Assembly: GCF_001481295.1 (NCBI RefSeq) | Contig: NZ_LOPS01000027.1 | Location: 1-64,000 of the forward strand | Length of the DNA: 64,000 bases | From: Candidatus Methanomethylophilus sp. 1R26 | Lineage (GTDB): Archaea > Thermoplasmatota > Thermoplasmata > Methanomassiliicoccales > Methanomethylophilaceae | Reading direction: 5' to 3' | In this document: one piece after another, positions 62 through 57,359 of the stretch | Layout of the letters: every line of letters begins with the position of its first letter | Position numbering within the stretch: position 1 is the first letter of the stretch | Made by a program: the position numbers and the translations under genes | The notes under the pieces: generated by a model | Told to the model about the DNA's origin: nothing | Databases searched by the model: none | What the model saw: only the letters and a program-made list of their open reading frames with translations

Positions 62-1683
62 TCAGGCCTTCTCGGCCAGCCTCAGGGTGCCGTACTTGAA
101 CACCTTGGAGGGGCACTCGCGCTCGCACCTGTAGCAGGCGGTGCCGAGGCAGTTCTTGGTCTGCACGGTGGCCACTCCGTCGTCGGAGATGGTCAGGGCC
201 TTCTCGGGGCAGTTCCTCTCGCACTTCCTGCAGACGGTGCAGCCGTCCATCTTCCCGACGAGCTGGGTCCCGATGTCGTGGATGATCGTGAGGCCGTTCA
301 CTCCGAGGTCCTGGATGTCCCTGGTGACCATGCGGTGGACGTTGGCGTGCCCGCGGGCCTTCGGAAGGGCCTGGATGCCCTCGACGGCGTTGTTCCTGTT
401 GTATTCCTCGAGGCTCATGCCCTCCTCCCAGAAGGAGAGCTCCTGCATGTAGATCTGCTCGAAGACGTGGTCCGACGCGAACATGACGTGGTTGGCGCGG
501 ATGCCGTTGGCGATGTCCTGCAGCTTGTCGAGGAGCTCCGGGTCCCTCAGGACGTCCTCGGCGAGCGCCAGGGAGGTGTTGCCCCACTGGTAGATCTCGG
601 TCGAGGTCGGGGGTATGAGGCCGACGTCGCGGGCCTTCATGGCATCCACATAAGTTCCGGACGCGCCCGCCATGTACATGGTGTGCATGTCGTCGAACTT
701 GATACCGGCATGTTCCAGGAGGGTGAAATGCCCCGCCTCATGGCGCCAATGGCCTTGGCTGCCTCGGATATGTCGTGGGAATCGACGTAGATGCCGTCCT
801 GGAGGTGCATCCTGCCGTCGGAGGTGGTGAGCTGCCCCTTCCGCCAGAGGTGCTCGTACTGGGCGACGGCCACGGCCGCGATGACGCCGGTCCCGGTGAT
901 CCCCTTCGCCTTGCCGTCCATCGGGCCCTTCTCCATCTCCTGCTCCAGGGCGAAGTTGATGAGGTCTCCGTCCTGGGGGGAGATGCTGTCATCGAGGACC
1001 TTGCATCTCCACGAGAAATCGTATTCGAGGTCGCTGATGGCGCCGGGGGCCGCCAGCATCCCGCAGCGGATGGACTGCCCCTCCATGGCCGGACCCGCGG
1101 CGGCGGACCCGGTGTAGATGTCGTCGCCGACCTTGAGGGCCATCTCGGCGTTGGTACCGTAGTCGGTGACCATGCAGTTGGCCTTCTGCTCCAGGAATCC
1201 GGACTTGTACATCATGGCGAGGGCGTCGGCACCGATCTCGTGCCTGATCGCCGGCGGGACGTAGAGCTCGGTGCCGTCGGGGACGTCGAGGCCGACGTCG
1301 ACGGCGGAGAACACTCCCGCATCCCTCTTCTGCTCCTTGATCCCCCTGGCCTTCTTGGCGTTCTCGCCTGCGAAGGCGAGGTCGTCGACGGGGATCCCCT
1401 GGAACAGGGACATCTGGATCGGGTTGCCGCAGATGGAAACCTTCTCGATCTGGTGCTTGTCGATGCCGAGCGCGTTGATGACCTTGTTCTCGGTGTCGAT
1501 GAGGATCTCATGGGCCACCTGGTTGCCGTTGTTGATGCAGAAGGTGAGATGGTCCATCACGTTGGCGCCAGGCAGGGGGTGGCATTCGGTCGTGACGGTT
1601 TTCAGCACTTTGTTGTTGGACAGGTCGATGGCGTGCGCTCTGCTGCCTGATGTTCCTACATCGATGGCGATTCCTATGCTCAT
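62..1683 (-). CDS. ramA: Corrinoid protein reductive activase RamA (frameshifted)
   Basis: RamA uses ATP to reduce inactive Co(II) corrinoid proteins to Co(I) so that methyltransferase cycles can restart. The N-terminal part opens with an ASKHA-type phosphate loop (AIDVGTSGSRAHAID). The C-terminus holds two ferredoxin-like [4Fe-4S] motifs, CTVCRKCERNCP and CLGTACYRCERECP, as in methanosarcinal RamA. The restored length of about 540 residues is normal. I chose the ATG at 1683 because AAGGAG lies just upstream and homology starts there; the frame stays open to 1770. The frame breaks at about 730 and resumes one base off (RGHFTLLEHAGIKFDDMH); one missing C in a CC repairs it. It lies close to a GTPase/metal cluster and mtaCB. 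Confidence 0.92.
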
Positions 1684-1837: not shown

Positions 1838-2584
1838 TCACTCGTCATGATGCTTGTGGCAGCAGCACCCGTGATGGTGCTCTTCCTCATCATCATCGTC
1901 ATGGTGGTGGTGCTCGTGCTCATCATGATGGTCGTGATGGTGGTCGGGCCTCAGCTTCCCGTTCTCGTCGAGAAGGGAGCTCATGTCCTCGTCATCATGG
2001 CAGCAGCAACCGTCATGGTGGTGGTGCCCGTCCTCATCATGGTCGTCGTCATCGTCATCATGGCAGCAGCATCCGTGATGGTGCTTTTCCTCATCATCGT
2101 CATGGTGGTGATGCTCATGCTCTTCGTCCTCATCATGGTCATCGTCCTCATCCCCGTCATGGTGATGGTGGTGATGGTGATGCTTCAGCGATTCCGGGTC
2201 GATGGCGTAGTCGAGCCCGGAATCATCGATGGCATGCAGCATGACATGGGTGAGTTCGTGCTCGTCGACGTCGAGGACGGCGCACATGAAGTTGAACTTG
2301 ACCTCGTCCTGGCGGGCCATGGTGCCGTGGTGCTCGACCCCGTTGTCCATGTCGATGAGGTTCAGGGTTATCCCGGTGCCGTCGTCCTTGTAGACTGCGG
2401 CCTTGATGTGGCCGAGGAGGCAGCCCGACTCGCCCTGGACGTACTTTCCGACGGCCATCAGGGCATCGGCGAGCCTCGCTTCGGCGTCGGTGTTGAAGTT
2501 GAAGATCTTCCCGGTGAAGCCGGCGGCGGCGCCCCCGGCCTCCTCGATGGAGTTCTCGTGATGGTGCTCGTGCTCCTCGCTCAT
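1838..2584 (-). CDS. His/Asp/Cys-rich metal-binding protein
   Basis: 248 residues with two parts. Residues about 1-135 form an ordinary acidic globular region I do not recognise (GKIFNFNTDAEARLADAL at the start). From about 135 the chain is almost only His, Asp and Glu, with runs of up to eight His and three copies of an HHxGCCCH motif. No signal peptide or membrane segment is seen, so it should be cytoplasmic. The start codon overlaps the stop of the GTPase gene before it by four bases (ATGA), so the two are translationally coupled. A store or donor for Zn, Ni or Co is inferred from composition and from the COG0523 partner; the metal is unknown. The antisense strand looks open and hydrophobic only because CAT/GAT repeats read as Met/Val/Ile codons. 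Confidence 0.85.
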   Translation of the reverse strand: MSEEHEHHHENSIEEAGGAAAGFTGKIFNFNTDAEARLADALMAVGKYVQGESGCLLGHIKAAVYKDDGTGITLNLIDMDNGVEHHGTMARQDEVKFNFMCAVLDVDEHELTHVMLHAIDDSGLDYAIDPESLKHHHHHHHHDGDEDDDHDEDEEHEHHHHDDDEEKHHHGCCCHDDDDDDHDEDGHHHHDGCCCHDDEDMSSLLDENGKLRPDHHHDHHDEHEHHHHDDDDEEEHHHGCCCHKHHDE

Positions 2585-3168
2585 TCTATCATCTCGTAGA
2601 CCTTGTCGAGGTTGTCCCCGGTCTTGACGGACACCGGGATGACCTTGGTCTCGGGGAAGCGCTCATGGAGCCAGGCGGAGGCCTCCTCGATCTGCCCGGG
2701 TTTCGCGAGGTCGGACTTGTTGATGAGGATGAAGTCCGAGGCGCGCATCTGGCCGGTGAAGAAGTCCTCCCTCTTGGTGACCAGGTCGTGGAACCTCTGC
2801 ACATCGGCGATGCCGATGACGACGTCCTTGTCCTCGTCGATGCAGGAGGAGCGGACGAGGTTCTTGACCTTCCCAGGGAGAGCGAGCCCAGTCGGCTCGA
2901 TGATGATGATGTCTGGGTCGATGTCGTTCTTGATGTTCCTGAGCGCGTTCTGGAGGGTCCCGGCGAGGGTGCAGCAGATGCATCCCTGCGGGAGCTCGAT
3001 GGCATCGTATCCCTGGGCCTTGAGGGTCGCCCCATCGACGCCGATCTCGCCCGACTCGTTGACGACGATCGCGACCCTCTCCTTCTTCTGGCCGAGCATG
3101 GTGGCGAGCCTCATGAGCAGACTGGTCTTTCCGCTTCCGAGGAAGCCGCCGATGATGTAGACAATCAT
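2581..3168 (-). CDS. Minimal COG0523 (CobW-type) G3E GTPase, copy 1
   Basis: 195 residues. Visible motifs are Walker A GGFLGSGKTSLL near the N-terminus, the family metal site GCICC (CxCC), Walker B IIIEPTGLALP and the guanine motif NKSD. COG0523 GTPases deliver metals such as Zn or Co to target enzymes. Typical members run beyond 300 residues with a CobW C-terminal domain; this one ends after the GTPase domain. The overlapping downstream gene encodes a His/Cys-rich protein that may replace the missing metal-binding part (inference). A TATA-like TATTTATACT element at about 3190-3205 (minus strand) sits close to the start, so the leader is short. Likely clients are MtaB (Zn) or corrinoid proteins (Co) encoded nearby. 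Confidence 0.85.
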   Translation of the reverse strand: MIVYIIGGFLGSGKTSLLMRLATMLGQKKERVAIVVNESGEIGVDGATLKAQGYDAIELPQGCICCTLAGTLQNALRNIKNDIDPDIIIIEPTGLALPGKVKNLVRSSCIDEDKDVVIGIADVQRFHDLVTKREDFFTGQMRASDFILINKSDLAKPGQIEEASAWLHERFPETKVIPVSVKTGDNLDKVYEMIE

Positions 3169-3332: not shown

Positions 3333-3919
3333 TCAGGCCATCAGTTCATAGACCCTGCCGAGGTTCTCGCCGGTCTTGACGGACACCGGGATGACCTCGG
3401 TCTCGGGGAAGCGTTCTGACAGCCAGGCCATCGCGCTCTCCATGTCCCCGGGCCCTGCGAGGTCGGATTTGTTGATGAGTATGAAGTCCGAGCCCTTCAT
3501 CTGCTCGACGAAGAATCCTTCTCTCTTCTTGATGAGGTCCTTGAACCTCTGAACATCGGCGATGCCGATGACGATGTCCTTCTCCTCCCCGGCGCTGTCT
3601 GCTCCGCCATCTCCTTTACCTTTCCAGGCATGGCGAGCCCGGTGGGCTCGATGATGATGACGTCCGGCGACCTCTCCTTCTCGATCTGCCTGATGGTGTC
3701 CTGCAGGGACCCCGCCAGGGTGCAGCATATGCAGCCCTCGGGGAGTTCATAAGAATCATACCCGCGCTGCTTCAGGGTCTCGCCGTCGACCCCGGACGAT
3801 CCGGACTCGTTGACGATTATGGCAACGTTCTGCCCTTTCTCCGTGAACTGGGCGGCGAGCCTGATCAGAAGGCTGGTCTTCCCGCTGCCCAGGAAGCCTC
3901 CCAGGATGATTATCCGCAT
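3333..3919 (-). CDS. Minimal COG0523 GTPase, copy 2 (frameshifted)
   Basis: A close paralogue of the GTPase at 2581-3168 with the same short layout: GGFLGSGKTSLL, GCICC, IIIEPTGLAMP and NKSD. Both end in almost the same segment (VIPVSVKTG followed by a short helix). The frame breaks at about 3590 in a run of four C on the plus strand; adding one base gives an intact protein of about 195 residues (EEKDIVIGIADVQRFKD follows). It lies between copy 1 and mtaC, transcribed away from mtaC. No His-rich partner follows it directly, so it may act on another client or share the protein at 1838. Confidence 0.8.
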
Positions 3920-4135: not shown

Positions 4136-4170
4136 TCAGGACAAGAAGCGTCCTGTTGGAGGAAGAAGAA

Positions 4171-4971
4171 TTGATCAGCATCGAAGGTGTGGATTTCTCT
4201 AAAATCCTGACCCGCTACGATCTCCAGCTGGAGAACGACCTCTCTCCCGAAGAGATGGCCAAGAAAATGCTCCCGACCGACCCCATACTGAAGAACGTGG
4301 CCGAGAAGGTCATGTACATGAAGTTCAAGGAGGTCATGCCCGCTGTGTCCGATGCTCTCGCCAAGGGCGTCGACCCCCTCGTCATCATCAACGACGGACT
4401 CGTCGCCGGTATGGACATCGTCGCCAAGCTGTACGCTGAGCACGTGTACTACCTCCCCGAGATCATGATGGCCGCCAAGACCATGGAAATGGGAATCAAG
4501 GTTGCCGAGAAGAAGATCCAGGGCGGAAGGCAGACCAAGGCCCTCTGCGTCATGCACGCTGTCGAGGGAGACCCCCACGACATCGGAAAGAACATCGCTG
4601 CCGTCATGATGAGGGCCGCCAACTACACCGTCGTCGACATGGGACGTGACGTTCCGATCACCGACGTCGTCGCCAAGGTCCAGGAGCTCAAGGACGCGGG
4701 AACCCCGCCCATCTTCGTCTCCGGAACCGCTCTGATGACCACCACCATGTCCGCTTTCCCCAAGGAGGCGGCCGAGTTCGTCAAGAAAGGCTGGAACATC
4801 CCCCTGATGGGATGCGGAGGAGCAGTCAACAGGGAGTTCGCGAACAGCTACGACCTCGGAATCTACTCCAAGAAGGCGCCTCAGACCCCGCTCATCGCCC
4901 AGAAGATCCTCGACGGATACGACTGGAAGAAGATCAGGGAAGACTGGGACAACATCGTGGGAGGAAACTGA
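4171..4971 (+). CDS. mtaC: Methanol corrinoid protein MtaC
   Basis: MtaC carries the corrinoid methylated by MtaB with methanol and demethylated by MtaA toward coenzyme M. An N-terminal helical cap (about residues 1-120) precedes a B12-binding Rossmann domain with the base-off ligand motif EGDPHDIGKN (Asp134, His136, Gly139 from this start). The frame is open from TTG 4156, but I place the start at TTG 4171 because GGAGG at 4158-4162 sits eight bases before it and the length then matches the family. mtaB starts two bases after the stop, so the pair is one operon. Confidence 0.93.
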   Translation: MISIEGVDFSKILTRYDLQLENDLSPEEMAKKMLPTDPILKNVAEKVMYMKFKEVMPAVSDALAKGVDPLVIINDGLVAGMDIVAKLYAEHVYYLPEIMMAAKTMEMGIKVAEKKIQGGRQTKALCVMHAVEGDPHDIGKNIAAVMMRAANYTVVDMGRDVPITDVVAKVQELKDAGTPPIFVSGTALMTTTMSAFPKEAAEFVKKGWNIPLMGCGGAVNREFANSYDLGIYSKKAPQTPLIAQKILDGYDWKKIREDWDNIVGGN

Positions 4972-4972
4972 A

Positions 4973-6373
4973 ATGGCATCGATCAAATACACCTCAATGG
5001 CTTACAAGAACGCGGACGACATGGTCATGGGAACCGCCGTCCACCCCTCTCCCCAGGGATACGGCCTCAAATTCGGAGCCGGCATGGTCATCCCCGAGAT
5101 CAACCACGCCCCCAGGCCCGGAAGGGAGAAGGATCCTGAGACCCTCAGGAAAGAGTACTGCGACTACATCACCACCGACGAGCTCAACAGGGCGATCACT
5201 GCCGGTATGCCTGCTCTCTTCATCGAGACCGAGTGGGTTTCCCAGATGTCCGACCCCAAGCTCTCCATCCCCGTCGTCGAGGGCCAGAACGAGCTCTGCG
5301 AGAAGTACCACGAGGAGTACGGAATCGCGACCGGAACCAGGCAGACCATCCCCGACAAGAGGGAGCACGACCACGGACTCAGGACCGGCATGGACACCGT
5401 CCACGCCTACCCCGAGGACTTCTGGTCCTGCTGCGACATCGCCTGCGAGAACGGTGCATCCAACCTCTCCGTCGAGTCCGTCGGCGGAAAAGAGTGCGCT
5501 GACTACGCCGTCACCCAGGGAGACGTCGTCGCCTTCCTGTACGGTGTCGGATACCTCGCCTGCTACGACATGGAGTACGTCTGGAACGGAATGGTCGACG
5601 TCGCCAAGAGGAACAGGGTCGTTCCCGGCGGAGACACCGACTGCTCCGGAGCGAACGTCGCCATGTTCATGGCCGGCGGAATGCTCGACCAGGATGTCCA
5701 GAAGACCTTCTCCGCGGTCACCCGCGCCATCTCCGCTTCCAGGTCCCTTGTGGCCCGCGAGTGCGGTGCGCTCGGACCCGACAAGGACTGCGGATACGAG
5801 GGAGTCATCTGCAAAGCGATCGACGGAAAGCCCATCACCTGCGAGGGTAAGAACTGCCAGTGCGCCCACTGCGACCTGCAGGGCAACCTGATCGCCGCCT
5901 GCTGCGACGCCTGGTCCAACGAGTCCGTCGAGTACCACCCCGAGTTCGGCGGATCCTCTGTCCAGTGCTGGCTCGGATCCCTCGGATACGAGTGCGCTCT
6001 GATGAACACCGCTATCCAGACCAAGCAGGCCAAGACCCTGAGGGACCTCTACACCATCACCGACCTGACCAGGTCGCCTGAGGCCTTCATCCTCGCCTAC
6101 AACAACGCTTTCGAGATCGGAAAGGCCATCGCTGCCGAGGGCAACGACTACTACCTCAGGTCCAGGGCCGCTGCGCTCAAGGCCATCGAGCTCATCGAGG
6201 GCGGATACAACTCCAAGCTCCTGCCTCTCACCAAGAAGCAGTACGAGGTCCTCGAGAAGTGCAAGACGGACATCAACGCCCTGCCCACCGAGACCGACAA
6301 GTTCGCGGAGCAGTGCGCGGCCAAGTACGTCGGCACCATCCCCAACCTCAACCTCAAGAACTACGGGTTCTGA
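4973..6373 (+). CDS. mtaB: Methanol:corrinoid methyltransferase MtaB
   Basis: MtaB activates methanol on zinc and transfers the methyl group to Co(I) of MtaC. The 466 residues match the family length. Expected zinc ligands are present: Glu168 (in VESVGGKE), Cys224 (DTDCSGAN) and Cys273 (KDCGYEG), each four places after Glu164, Cys220 and Cys269 of the Methanosarcina barkeri enzyme. ATG 4973 is preceded by a GGAGG-type site that overlaps the end of mtaC. Codon choice is strongly biased, as expected for a highly expressed catabolic gene. No pyrrolysine codon is needed for MtaB. Confidence 0.95.
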   Translation: MASIKYTSMAYKNADDMVMGTAVHPSPQGYGLKFGAGMVIPEINHAPRPGREKDPETLRKEYCDYITTDELNRAITAGMPALFIETEWVSQMSDPKLSIPVVEGQNELCEKYHEEYGIATGTRQTIPDKREHDHGLRTGMDTVHAYPEDFWSCCDIACENGASNLSVESVGGKECADYAVTQGDVVAFLYGVGYLACYDMEYVWNGMVDVAKRNRVVPGGDTDCSGANVAMFMAGGMLDQDVQKTFSAVTRAISASRSLVARECGALGPDKDCGYEGVICKAIDGKPITCEGKNCQCAHCDLQGNLIAACCDAWSNESVEYHPEFGGSSVQCWLGSLGYECALMNTAIQTKQAKTLRDLYTITDLTRSPEAFILAYNNAFEIGKAIAAEGNDYYLRSRAAALKAIELIEGGYNSKLLPLTKKQYEVLEKCKTDINALPTETDKFAEQCAAKYVGTIPNLNLKNYGF

Positions 6374-54232: not shown

Positions 54233-55240
54233 TCAGTTCTGTTTTTCATTCAGACTCGGATCTGTCGCGGAAGTTGCACTTTCGGAGCTGACCTTCGGCT
54301 CTTCCTTGCTCTTGAACATGCTGAGGCCGAATCCCTTCTTGGGCTTCTTCCTGCTCACGATGCCCGCGTCGTCGGACATCACGTTCTGGTTCTCCAGGTA
54401 ATCGAGGATGTCCCGCCTGAGCTTGGTGAACTCCGGAGACGCTCTGTCCCTGGGTCTTTCCCACGGGACGTCGATGACCTTGTAGACCGTCGAAGGCCTC
54501 TTGGTCAGGATGACCACGCGGTCGGACAGGAACAGCGCCTCGTCGACGGAGTGGGTGATGAAGATGATGGTCCTCTCGCTGTGCATGAGGATCCTCGTCA
54601 GCTGCTCCTGCATGATGTTCCTGGTCTGGGCGTCGAGCGCTCCGAACGGCTCGTCCATGAGGGTCACCGCCGGGTGCATGACCAGAGCGCGGGCGATGCC
54701 CACCCTCTGCTTCATGCCTCCGGAGAGCTCATAGATGCGGGAGTCCGCGAAGTCCTCCAGGCCGACGGCCTTGATGTACCGCATGGCCCTCTCCTCGCGT
54801 TCCGCCTTGGGGACGCCTGCGACCTCCATCCCGAACTCGACGTTCTGCTTCACGCTCCTCCAGGGGAAGAGCGCGAAGTCCTGGAACACCATCCCGCGGT
54901 CGGAGCCCGGCGCGGTGCACGGCTTCCCGCCCATGGTGATGGTCCCGGATGTGGGCTGCAGGAGCCCCGCGATGCATCTGAGGATGGTTGTCTTCCCGCA
55001 TCCTGACGGACCTACGATGGAGACGAGCTCCCCCTTCTTCACGTCAAGGCTGAAGTTCTCCACCGCGGTGGTCTCCGACTCGTCGGTCTTGTACACCACG
55101 TGCAGGTCCTTGATGGACATCAGGGTCTCGCCCTCGGGGATGTCCTTGTAAAGCAGGTCGGTGCGGTCCGCTCTCACACGGTCCCTGGACCTGTACCTCG
55201 GGCCTCTGTCTTTATCCCGTCGTTGGCAGCCATCAGACAT
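54233..55240 (-). CDS. SsuB/TauB/NrtD-type ABC ATPase
   Basis: Walker A GPSGCGKTT, Q-loop MVFQDFALFPWRS, signature LSGGMKQRVGIARAL, Walker B VTLMDEPFGALD and switch His IFITHSVDEALFLSDRV are typical of importers for sulfonates, taurine, nitrate or pyrimidines. The domain proper starts at MSIKDLHVV (55108), but the frame is open back to ATG 55240, which overlaps the permease stop; I choose the longer form with low confidence. A C-terminal extension (KKPKKGFGLSMFKSKEEPKV) of about 40 residues is basic and unusual. Confidence 0.85.
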   Translation of the reverse strand: MSDGCQRRDKDRGPRYRSRDRVRADRTDLLYKDIPEGETLMSIKDLHVVYKTDESETTAVENFSLDVKKGELVSIVGPSGCGKTTILRCIAGLLQPTSGTITMGGKPCTAPGSDRGMVFQDFALFPWRSVKQNVEFGMEVAGVPKAEREERAMRYIKAVGLEDFADSRIYELSGGMKQRVGIARALVMHPAVTLMDEPFGALDAQTRNIMQEQLTRILMHSERTIIFITHSVDEALFLSDRVVILTKRPSTVYKVIDVPWERPRDRASPEFTKLRRDILDYLENQNVMSDDAGIVSRKKPKKGFGLSMFKSKEEPKVSSESATSATDPSLNEKQN

Positions 55241-56083
55241 CCATCCCCATTCTCTTCGATATGTACTTGTGTATGTAGTCGGCGAGCCCGGAGGTGAGGA
55301 TCCCCAGCACTGCGATGATGACGATCGCGGCGTAGGCGGAAGGCCAGAAGCCTGCTGTCGCCTGCTCGGAGAGGTAGAACCCGATGCCTCCGAGAGGAGA
55401 GGCGTACAGCTCCGCGGCAACGATGCACATCCAGCCGATGCCGAGCCCGACCTTGATCCCGTTCATGATGTAGGGAACGGTGGACGGTATCATGACCTTC
55501 ACGAAGATCTGGGCGTCGGAGGCCCCCAGCGTCTTGGAGGCATCTATGAGGTTCGGCTCGATCTTCGAGACCCCGAAGATGACGTTGGTCAGCAGAGGGA
55601 AGAAGATACCGACGAAGACGACCAGCATGGGCCCGGTCTCGTAGTCGATGGCGACCATGAAGATAGCGCCCATGCGATGGGCGCGATGGGCCTGAGGACC
55701 TCGATCATCGGAGTGGCGAACTCCCTCAGGGTAGCGAACTTGCCGAGGACCAGGCCCAGGGGTATGGACACCACCAGGGCGAGGATGAATCCCTCCAGGT
55801 AAGTGGACAGCGATGAGCTGATGTACGACCACATGGACTTCCCGCCGGACATGGTGTCCCCGTTGCTGTAGAAGTCCACAAGGGCGTCCCAGGTGTCCGC
55901 GGGGTTGGGGATGGTGTACGAGTTTGCGATGATGGATATGACCCACCAGGCCTCCACGAACATCACCAGCGATATCGCGGTGATCAGGAGCTTCCTTCCT
56001 GCCCGGTGGTATTTGTTGTGTTTGTCGTATTTGAAATGCAGGACCGCGTCCGCGATCCCGCCTTCCCTGAACTCCAGTGCCAA
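55233..56083 (-). CDS. SsuC/TauC-type ABC permease (frameshifted)
   Basis: About 283 residues, six helices. The N-terminal helix (LLITAISLVMFVEAWWVISI) and the EAA loop region (DASKTLGASDAQIFVKVMIP) identify the family. One base is missing in CCC at 55669-55671 (plus strand); the restored join reads IAPIAWGAIFMVAIDYETGP. It starts ten bases after the binding-protein stop and its stop overlaps the ATPase start. Confidence 0.87.
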
Positions 56084-56093
56084 TCTATCGCCT

Positions 56094-57359
56094 TCAGACC
56101 GTCACGAGCTGCCCGTTGACGCAGGTTATGGTCGCAGGGGGAGCTCCCATGAACCCGAAGTCCGCAGAGCCGTTCTGCATGGCGACTGCAACGCCGGCGC
56201 CGTTCGACTCGTTGACCTGCTGGATGTTGATCCCGTAGTGTGTGAAGAATCCCTGCGCCACTCCGACCTGGAGGGCGATCTGGTGGATGTCTCCGGAGAT
56301 GACGGCGACCGTCACGGTGGTGCTGGTCCCGTTGTAGCTGCCGTAGCTCTCCGCCTCATGCAGGTACGACTCGTCGACGAACCTGTTGGCGAACTGCACA
56401 GAGTTGGAGAAGCCGAGGTCGGACATACTGTACCTGAGGGTGCTTGAGTTCGCCTCGACGATGTCGGCGATATCGTACTTAAGCTGCGTCAGGGTCCCGT
56501 CCTCGTCCGCGTAGACGTAGGTGATGTTGCTGAGGGCGTCCTTGATGTAGGTCTCGCTGAGTCCGGTGGAGCTCACGCAGGTGCTCACCAGTGCATTGTA
56601 ATTATCGGACGAAGTGTCGCTGAGGGCCGCATTGACCCAGTTGACCGATTCGATGTATCCGGCGAGGAACCTCTCGGTGACGTCCTGGTGGCTGTTCACA
56701 TAAGAGGAATAACCCGCGAGGACGCAGCAGGTGTGCCCGGGGAAGAAGTAGTTGGTGAGACCCAGGCCCTGGAATGCCGTGCCTTCGGCATCGATGACTG
56801 CAGAGTACTGAGGTTCCCATATGATCCCGATGTCCGGATGGGGAGTGTCGTTCATGATCTTGCTGGCATTGGTGAACGTCGAGATGTACGCCACCTGGCT
56901 GGATGACACCGATGTCCCGGATTCGTACAGCACGAACGAAAGCCCCATCGAGGTAACTATCTGGTTCATCTGAACGTGCTGGATGGAGGTGTTTCCCGGG
57001 GTTCCGCATATGAGGCCTCCCCAGGCAGCCGCATTATCCGAACTGACAGAATATACTAGATTTCCCTCAGAGTCCGCAGAGGGAGTGTAGAAAGGAGTAC
57101 CGTTCCTGTAGGGGACGTTCACGCTGTATGTTACCTCTGAACCGTCGACGGTGGCGGTGAACGTCGTACTGACAGTGGATTCCACTTCGTCCTTGTCAAT
57201 GTATATGCCCGATCCCTCGGTGTTCACACGTGCCAATATGTTGTAGACGTTGTTAGAGCCGTTGTCATCGTTGATGGATTCATCGTAGACGATGATGCCG
57301 GCCATCGCGCCCATGATGGCGACGACGATGATGGCGGTGGACCAAAATTTAGCGTTCAT
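56094..57359 (-). CDS. NMT1/SsuA-type substrate-binding protein, circularly permuted
   Basis: 421 residues, one intact frame. An N-terminal anchor (FWSTAIIVVAIMGAMAGIIV) precedes a periplasmic binding domain. The order is abnormal. The segment that normally opens this fold, VAVISGDIHQIALQVGVAQG through ADFGFMGAPPATITCVNGQL, is at the C-terminus (about residues 348-421). The chain begins with the strand that should follow it, YNILARVNTEGSGIYIDKDE, then CGTPGNTSIQHVQMNQI. End and start join into a continuous canonical domain. It heads a three-gene importer. The ligand may be a sulfonate, nitrate or pyrimidine-like compound. Confidence 0.85.
   Translation of the reverse strand: MNAKFWSTAIIVVAIMGAMAGIIVYDESINDDNGSNNVYNILARVNTEGSGIYIDKDEVESTVSTTFTATVDGSEVTYSVNVPYRNGTPFYTPSADSEGNLVYSVSSDNAAAWGGLICGTPGNTSIQHVQMNQIVTSMGLSFVLYESGTSVSSSQVAYISTFTNASKIMNDTPHPDIGIIWEPQYSAVIDAEGTAFQGLGLTNYFFPGHTCCVLAGYSSYVNSHQDVTERFLAGYIESVNWVNAALSDTSSDNYNALVSTCVSSTGLSETYIKDALSNITYVYADEDGTLTQLKYDIADIVEANSSTLRYSMSDLGFSNSVQFANRFVDESYLHEAESYGSYNGTSTTVTVAVISGDIHQIALQVGVAQGFFTHYGINIQQVNESNGAGVAVAMQNGSADFGFMGAPPATITCVNGQLVTV

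Follow-up and report, generated by a model that had tools for sequence, protein, structure and literature searches.

A probably split COG0523 protein with a separate His/Asp-tailed chain beside the methanol methyltransferase genes of Methanomassiliicoccales

Results

Gene organization near the contig start

The DNA analyzed here (the window) is a stretch of 64,000 nucleotides on contig C27 in the draft assembly (1.72 Mb) of Candidatus Methanomethylophilus sp. 1R26. Four genes lie on its minus strand in the order second GTPase, GTPase, partner and ramA, and mtaC and mtaB are divergently arranged on the plus strand. The GTPase (2581–3168, minus strand) is a short G3E/COG0523 protein of 195 residues, recognized by PF02492, that lacks a C-terminal domain. 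The open reading frame of its partner, a protein of 248 residues (1838–2584, minus strand), begins within the stop codon of the GTPase (ATGA). The same operon contains RamA, the corrinoid-protein reductive activase (62–1683, minus strand), which matches TIGR04270 in two pieces. The divergent neighbor is MtaC, the methanol corrinoid protein (4156–4971, plus strand; NF040669, E 9.5e-80, with B12-binding domains), and next to it is the methanol:corrinoid methyltransferase MtaB (4973–6373, plus strand; PF12176, E 1.4e-192), a zinc enzyme and the client that we propose. An open frame on the plus strand opposite the tail of the partner (1847–2599) was rejected as a gene, as it merely mirrors the repeat codons. 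Elsewhere in the same genome, mtbB, mttB and mtmB with in-frame TAG (pyrrolysine) codons are found (G000:C11:393-9880 and G000:C2:787-2166).

A preliminary description of this DNA placed the pair beside ramA and mtaCB, which is correct, and was silent on the second GTPase and on two frameshifts. Compared with a complete genome of the same species (G035), which has the same genes at 98.7% identity, the window has one base fewer near 736, within ramA, and one base fewer near 3595, within the second short GTPase (3333–3919, minus strand; PF02492 match in two frames). Since both genes are intact in G035 (locus L034, with a ramA reading frame of 569 residues and a second GTPase of 195 residues), the frameshifts look like defects of the draft assembly or of the strain. 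The second GTPase has no partner of its own; it is a recent duplicate of the window GTPase and its sister in the GTPase tree (99/93).

Membership of the window GTPase in G3E/COG0523 is indicated by a PF02492 match over residues 3–176 (E 1.2e-40; 139.4 bits against a curated cut-off of 20.7) and by the presence of all four motifs on the minus strand: Walker A GFLGSGKT (3124–3147), the metal motif GCICC (2971–2985), EPTG (2887–2898) and NKSD (2710–2721). A Pfam scan found no CobW_C (PF07683), which is common to most COG0523 proteins, in the 195-residue chain, and the chain ends at the point where the C-terminal domain would start. The PF02492 match and the reading frames thus bear out the earlier account of a GTPase without the CobW C-terminal domain that overlaps the tailed protein by ATGA. 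Its word "truncated" holds for the missing domain but is a relative term, as short G3E proteins are already described by NF041053, a 195-residue model of a CobW-related selenoprotein. That model is the best NCBIfam match of the window GTPase and has the same length, but the score of 102.6 bits is below the cut-off of 180 and the GCICC motif has Cys in place of Sec, so the protein falls outside NF041053. The second-best NCBIfam model is CobW.

The partner has no family match in Pfam or NCBIfam. Its folded domain of about 110 residues (approximately residues 18–128; 2201–2533, minus strand) is delimited by an alignment of homologues (A1), by AlphaFold2 and by a profile match to G3E C-terminal domains. 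It includes a conserved GHIK (2402–2413, minus strand) and a conserved FMxAV (2276–2290, minus strand), and residues G22, G58, H59, K61, G82 and M100 are invariant in A1. AlphaFold2 run on nine sequences predicts the order beta, long helix, beta, beta, short beta, beta, helix, with a mean pLDDT of 89 for the domain; a single-sequence AlphaFold model of the partner (pLDDT 41) was discarded. From residue 134 the protein continues as a tail of 115 residues defined by its composition (1841–2185, minus strand; 40 His, 31 Asp, 16 Glu and 9 Cys), in which units of 33 and 63 bp are repeated in tandem and in frame. The His/Asp tail with three HHxGCCCH modules reported previously is therefore present, with HHHGCCCH at 2060–2083, HHDGCCCH at 1997–2020 and HHHGCCCH at 1856–1879, all on the minus strand.

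The two-protein module is conserved and the tail is variable

Homologues of the partner were found in 101 of the 147 genomes of the order Methanomassiliicoccales, representing 21 of 30 genera. There were no matches outside the order among 389 sampled Thermoplasmatota genomes, a pattern scan of genome contigs returned matches from Methanomassiliicoccales only, and none was found on plasmids. GTPase and partner are present in G035 at 99–100%, and the sole difference in length is 6 bp, in frame, within the tail. The exact four-base ATGA overlap occurs in 78 of 99 GTPase–partner pairs, a count in which a few loci are perhaps included twice. Among tails of at least 30 residues (n = 43), His, Asp, Glu and Cys together make up 41–88% (median 69%). 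The G035 copies, the distribution across genomes, the composition of the tails and the frequency of the overlap argue that GTPase and partner are not a chance combination. The usual arrangement in the order is GTPase, partner and RamA beside mtaCB.

The domain of the partner is conserved and its tail is not, with tail lengths of 2 to 285 residues across lineages. Tails are reduced to 2–15 residues in lineages g7, g10 and g13 and to short HEHE stretches in f5, and the Cys modules differ by lineage (CxCH, DDPxCxCH or GCCCH). Several g9 genomes encode single chains in which a Cys/His linker is enclosed by two copies of the domain. Two-domain partners joined by a Cys/His-rich linker were observed at loci L039, L040, L041, L080, L081 and L092; at L092, the stretch after the first domain is 285 residues long and contains 61 Cys. 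The tails at L082 (8501–9307) and L083 (8344–9093) carry a repeated VVNNYY...YYHCCC, unlike the plain His/Asp tails found elsewhere. Judged from these sequence comparisons, what is conserved is the module of two proteins and the tail is an embellishment of it, since the domain persists while the tail varies.

The preliminary description spoke of a "metal sponge", and as the essence of the locus this is not supported by the survey, as several lineages keep the pair with almost no tail. A tail protein that serves as a metal store or in detoxification, without directed delivery, would fit the extreme His/Cys content, the repeat-driven lengthening and the second domain copies on Cys/His linkers in several genomes. 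However, no part of the protein is less conserved than the tail, the domain and the overlap are kept with only 2–20 tail residues in g7, g10, g13 and parts of f5/f6, and a GTPase is unnecessary for storage. We consider pure storage very unlikely.

The partner is probably a detached G3E C-terminal domain

The same order also encodes full-length G3E GTPases of 360 residues (for example at L186 and L188), in which PF02492 is followed by an unnamed C-terminal part. Profiles of the partner match this C-terminal domain at 78% for mta-type partners (E 1.8e-5), 94% for all partners (E 1.4e-7, 103 columns) and 96% for sister-type partners (E 2.3e-9, 120 columns), where the E-values are those of a single pairwise comparison and not of a database search. 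The alignment is collinear over 90–120 columns. As controls, the best of 60–100 column shuffles reached 2–6%, with a maximum of about 4% for the comparisons at 94% and 96%, the reversed alignment reached 0.1%, and the partner profile had no match to the GTPase half of the full-length proteins. In the sampled loci a short GTPase is almost always accompanied by an adjoining partner gene, with few short orphans, and none of the sampled full-length G3E loci has a partner gene. Because the partner is homologous to the full-length C-terminal domain and adjacent to a short GTPase, the pair is probably a split COG0523 protein whose C-terminal domain became a separate, translationally coupled chain. 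This supports, and makes more specific, the earlier suggestion of a split version of a His-tailed metallochaperone.

Structural comparison adds an independent hint. In a Foldseek search of 350,542 chains with the partner-domain model, the COG0523 protein YjiA of E. coli ranked 2–4 (prob 0.72–0.92, E 0.02–0.04). VIA-align of the model with YjiA 161–318 gave Z 6.1–6.2 and an rmsd of 4.5–5.0 over 107–110 residues, against Z values of up to 7.8 for unrelated alpha/beta folds. Alone, this match is below significance and is only a hint in favor of a detached domain. Identity of the partner with Pfam CobW_C was rejected on sequence grounds, as the hhalign values of 0.3% and 3% did not exceed those of shuffled controls, and the C-terminal profiles of the full-length G3E proteins likewise had no match in the Pfam CobW_C set. 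A PDB profile search with A1 returned chance matches only (T-cell-receptor and designed proteins), and a Pfam scan of the partner members gave scattered weak matches (PCI, POTRA_3), none of them coherent.

Short GTPases form three clades with different neighbors

The short GTPases of the order fall into three clades, mta (43 rows, 98/99), topA (15 rows, 100/99) and urod (17 rows, 97/95), each with its own type of partner. In about a dozen genomes, the topA clade stands tail-to-tail with an archaeal topoisomerase I that bears C4 zinc ribbons; topA-type GTPase–partner loci come from many genera (L144, L148, L152, L154, L158, L159, L171, L174, L175, L179 and L181). The urod clade has two settings, one with an MtbC/MtgC-like corrinoid protein, a URO-D/MtaA-like methyltransferase and a hydantoinase-like protein, and the other with two URO-D proteins and a RamA homologue. 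In some genera (loci L164, L165, L167 and L168), an orphan mta-clade GTPase lies at RamA-mtaCB and the GTPase–partner pair lies elsewhere.

Two urod-type loci have further neighbors. At L162 (1233–4943, genome G110), a cobaltochelatase gene, cobN, is convergent with a urod-clade GTPase–partner pair. At L153 (1357–2337, genome G130, family f6), a gene of the HgcA type (mercury methylation corrinoid; 412.7 bits against a cut-off of 275) lies directly upstream of the GTPase–partner pair and downstream of a URO-D gene. HgcA and CobN belong to corrinoid and not to zinc biology, which speaks against the zinc reading proposed below.

Short GTPases lie near MtaB and not near methylamine methyltransferases

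The preliminary description proposed a survey of whether the pair follows mtaCB or methylamine genes. The answer at the level of loci is that the short GTPase tracks MtaB and never the methylamine methyltransferases: in 19 genomes, a short GTPase is at most 10 kb away from 21 of 27 MtaB loci, compared to 0 of 74 methylamine methyltransferase loci (MttB 0/28, MtmB 0/26, MtbB 0/20). Two of the six MtaB exceptions are fragments at contig ends, and the 21 loci are not independent because of shared ancestry. Proximity was scored at the locus level and not as co-occurrence in genomes; co-occurrence carries little weight here, as partner and MtaB are both present in the majority of genomes and many metagenome-assembled genomes are broken.

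All four methyltransferase types (MtaB, MttB, MtmB and MtbB) work together with corrinoid proteins and use RamA-type activation. To our knowledge, the pyrrolysine methyltransferases are not zinc enzymes. Both MtaA and MtaB are zinc-dependent according to PMC2770081, which for MtaB cites Sauer and Thauer (1997). The contrast between MtaB and the methylamine enzymes favors zinc for MtaB over cobalt or corrinoid, because the methylamine enzymes also need a corrinoid protein and RamA and yet are never found near the GTPase.

The same contrast bears on a role in which the split GTPase assists MtaC and related corrinoid proteins with the loading or protection of their corrinoid, as CobW aids the entry of cobalt into corrin. 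The mta- and urod-type modules are flanked by genes for corrinoid proteins, CobN adjoins one urod-type module and an HgcA gene precedes the pair in another, and CobW is the second model in the NCBIfam ranking. On the other hand, genes for the corrinoid-dependent methylamine methyltransferases are missing from the vicinity of the module, and the topA-type modules have no corrinoid neighbor. We regard a corrinoid role as rather unlikely.

A function directed at RamA has to be weighed as well, in which the pair helps to assemble or activate the corrinoid-reactivation machinery and nearness to MtaB is secondary. In the mta clade, linkage to MtaB and linkage to RamA are inseparable by position, since RamA is in the same operon. 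The commonest operon is GTPase-partner-RamA, and a RamA homologue also adjoins the URO-D type C modules at L146, L147 and L182. Against this, RamA is absent from the vicinity of the topA-type modules and of the pairs in lineages g5, g11 and g12, and the assembly of Fe-S clusters, such as those of RamA, is not a known function of G3E GTPases. Such a function appears unlikely to us.

The preliminary description had offered storage or delivery of zinc for MtaB or of cobalt for corrinoids. Zinc for MtaB is the better of the two options on the locus counts, but it is a tentative reading: RamA shares the operon, some sister modules have corrinoid proteins, HgcA or CobN at their flanks, and the pair occurs without MtaB in G034, which is complete, and in G024.

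Linkage to an ABC transporter in part of the order

Through its relatives only, the pair is tied to a TauABC/NitT-like ABC transporter, which is its neighbor in most of the family's other genera. In the window, this transporter is at 54.2–57.4 kb, about 54 kb from the GTPase–partner pair, with the gene of the substrate-binding protein (56094–57359, minus strand) next to those of the permease and ATPase (approximately 54233–56010, minus strand); the permease seems to run in two frames in the draft. The substrate-binding protein has an HxCC (56724–56735, minus strand), in which the His and first Cys are conserved in 48 of 48 sequences and the second Cys in 47 of 48, and a DxHQ (56280–56291, minus strand) conserved in 46–47 of 48. 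Homologues away from methyltransferase genes, which the preliminary description had named as refuting its reading, do exist in part, as some genera have the pair beside this transporter instead. In g5, g11 and g12, transporter and pair form one gene cluster without mta or RamA.

These observations raise the alternative that pair and transporter together take up and hand over a single metal or metal complex, of which MtaB is only one consumer. Of the 78 genomes of the window's family (f1) that have both, 51 have them no more than 10 kb apart, and the HxCC and DxHQ of its binding protein would suit such a route. However, it is located elsewhere, away from the pair, in the window genus and in f5/f6, and nearly all members of the order have it, with or without a detected pair (the substrate-binding protein is in 132 of 147 genomes, the partner in 101). 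Its neighbors in f5/f6 (radical SAM/GNAT, TPR, pyridine-nucleotide reductase and anaerobic NRDD proteins) give no hint of the substrate, and its Tau/Ssu relatives carry sulfonates. Possible substrates are a metal or a sulfonate such as coenzyme M, the synthesis genes of which are absent in at least one relative (PMC4824259). A shared uptake route strikes us as improbable.

Discussion

The observations of the preliminary description are confirmed by this analysis and its interpretation is partly supported. We infer the metal, the interaction of GTPase and partner, and the client from sequence and gene neighborhood. The explanation that we favor, to which we give an even chance as a whole, is a split COG0523-type metallochaperone whose tail acts as a metal buffer, most likely for Zn(II), and which delivers to MtaB at this locus and to their own zinc enzymes in the case of the sister modules. 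GTPase and partner would reassemble into one working GTPase. The tail would buffer the metal and hand it to the GCICC site, and GTP binding and hydrolysis would power its handover to an apo-client, here most likely at the zinc site of MtaB. Sister modules could play the same role for the adjoining URO-D methyltransferases and zinc-ribbon topoisomerase I.

A broader proposal is that the order uses a family of split zinc-insertion GTPases, one copy per zinc enzyme (MtaB, URO-D-type methyltransferases and topoisomerase I). An evolvable His/Cys tail would buffer the metal, and many genera would add a linked ABC importer whose binding protein has the HxCC; together, these parts would constitute a dedicated metal supply for methanol methanogenesis. 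We put this forward as doubtful, though possible.

In gut and rumen methanogens, methanogenesis from methanol begins with MtaB. If the GTPase is indeed split and its metal tail separable, GTPase action and metal buffering could be tested separately. The contrast between MtaB and the methylamine enzymes yields a prediction about client and metal that is direct and can be falsified, and the sister modules at URO-D methyltransferases and zinc-ribbon topoisomerase are built-in comparisons.

A G3E GTPase that works with a separate, His-tailed metal partner is familiar from UreG with UreE and from HypB with HypA or SlyD. The window pair has the same layout, but those are nickel systems, and its partner has no Pfam or NCBIfam match to them. 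The full-length 360-residue G3E proteins of the same order combine a GTPase with a C-terminal domain homologous to the partner, yet they are single chains with a GCFC-type motif and no metal tail, encoded at separate loci that lack a partner. The zinc chaperone GTPases ZNG1 and ZigA and E. coli YjiA, all of COG0523, are likewise G3E GTPases with a CxCC motif and a C-terminal domain, but they are single chains, and the sequence profile of the window partner does not match Pfam CobW_C.

The closest precedent is subfamily 13 of COG0523, which is found beside mtaA, mtaB, mtaC and ramM in Methanosarcina and some clostridia (Haas et al. 2009, PMC2770081). It represents the same GTPase family in the same kind of neighborhood as the window pair, and the available part of that paper contains no mention of a split gene, a partner, a tail protein or sister modules. 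The paper also reports the COG0523 protein MA4382 in methanol-grown cells and His-stretches in about 40% of COG0523 proteins (PMC2770081). Among open-access papers, we found none that deals with CobW proteins in Methanomassiliicoccales or with a COG0523 protein whose C-terminal domain is detached. The occurrence of COG0523 proteins beside mta genes is thus already known (Haas et al. 2009, PMC2770081), and the split, the partner family, the sister modules and the linked ABC transporter appear to be new.
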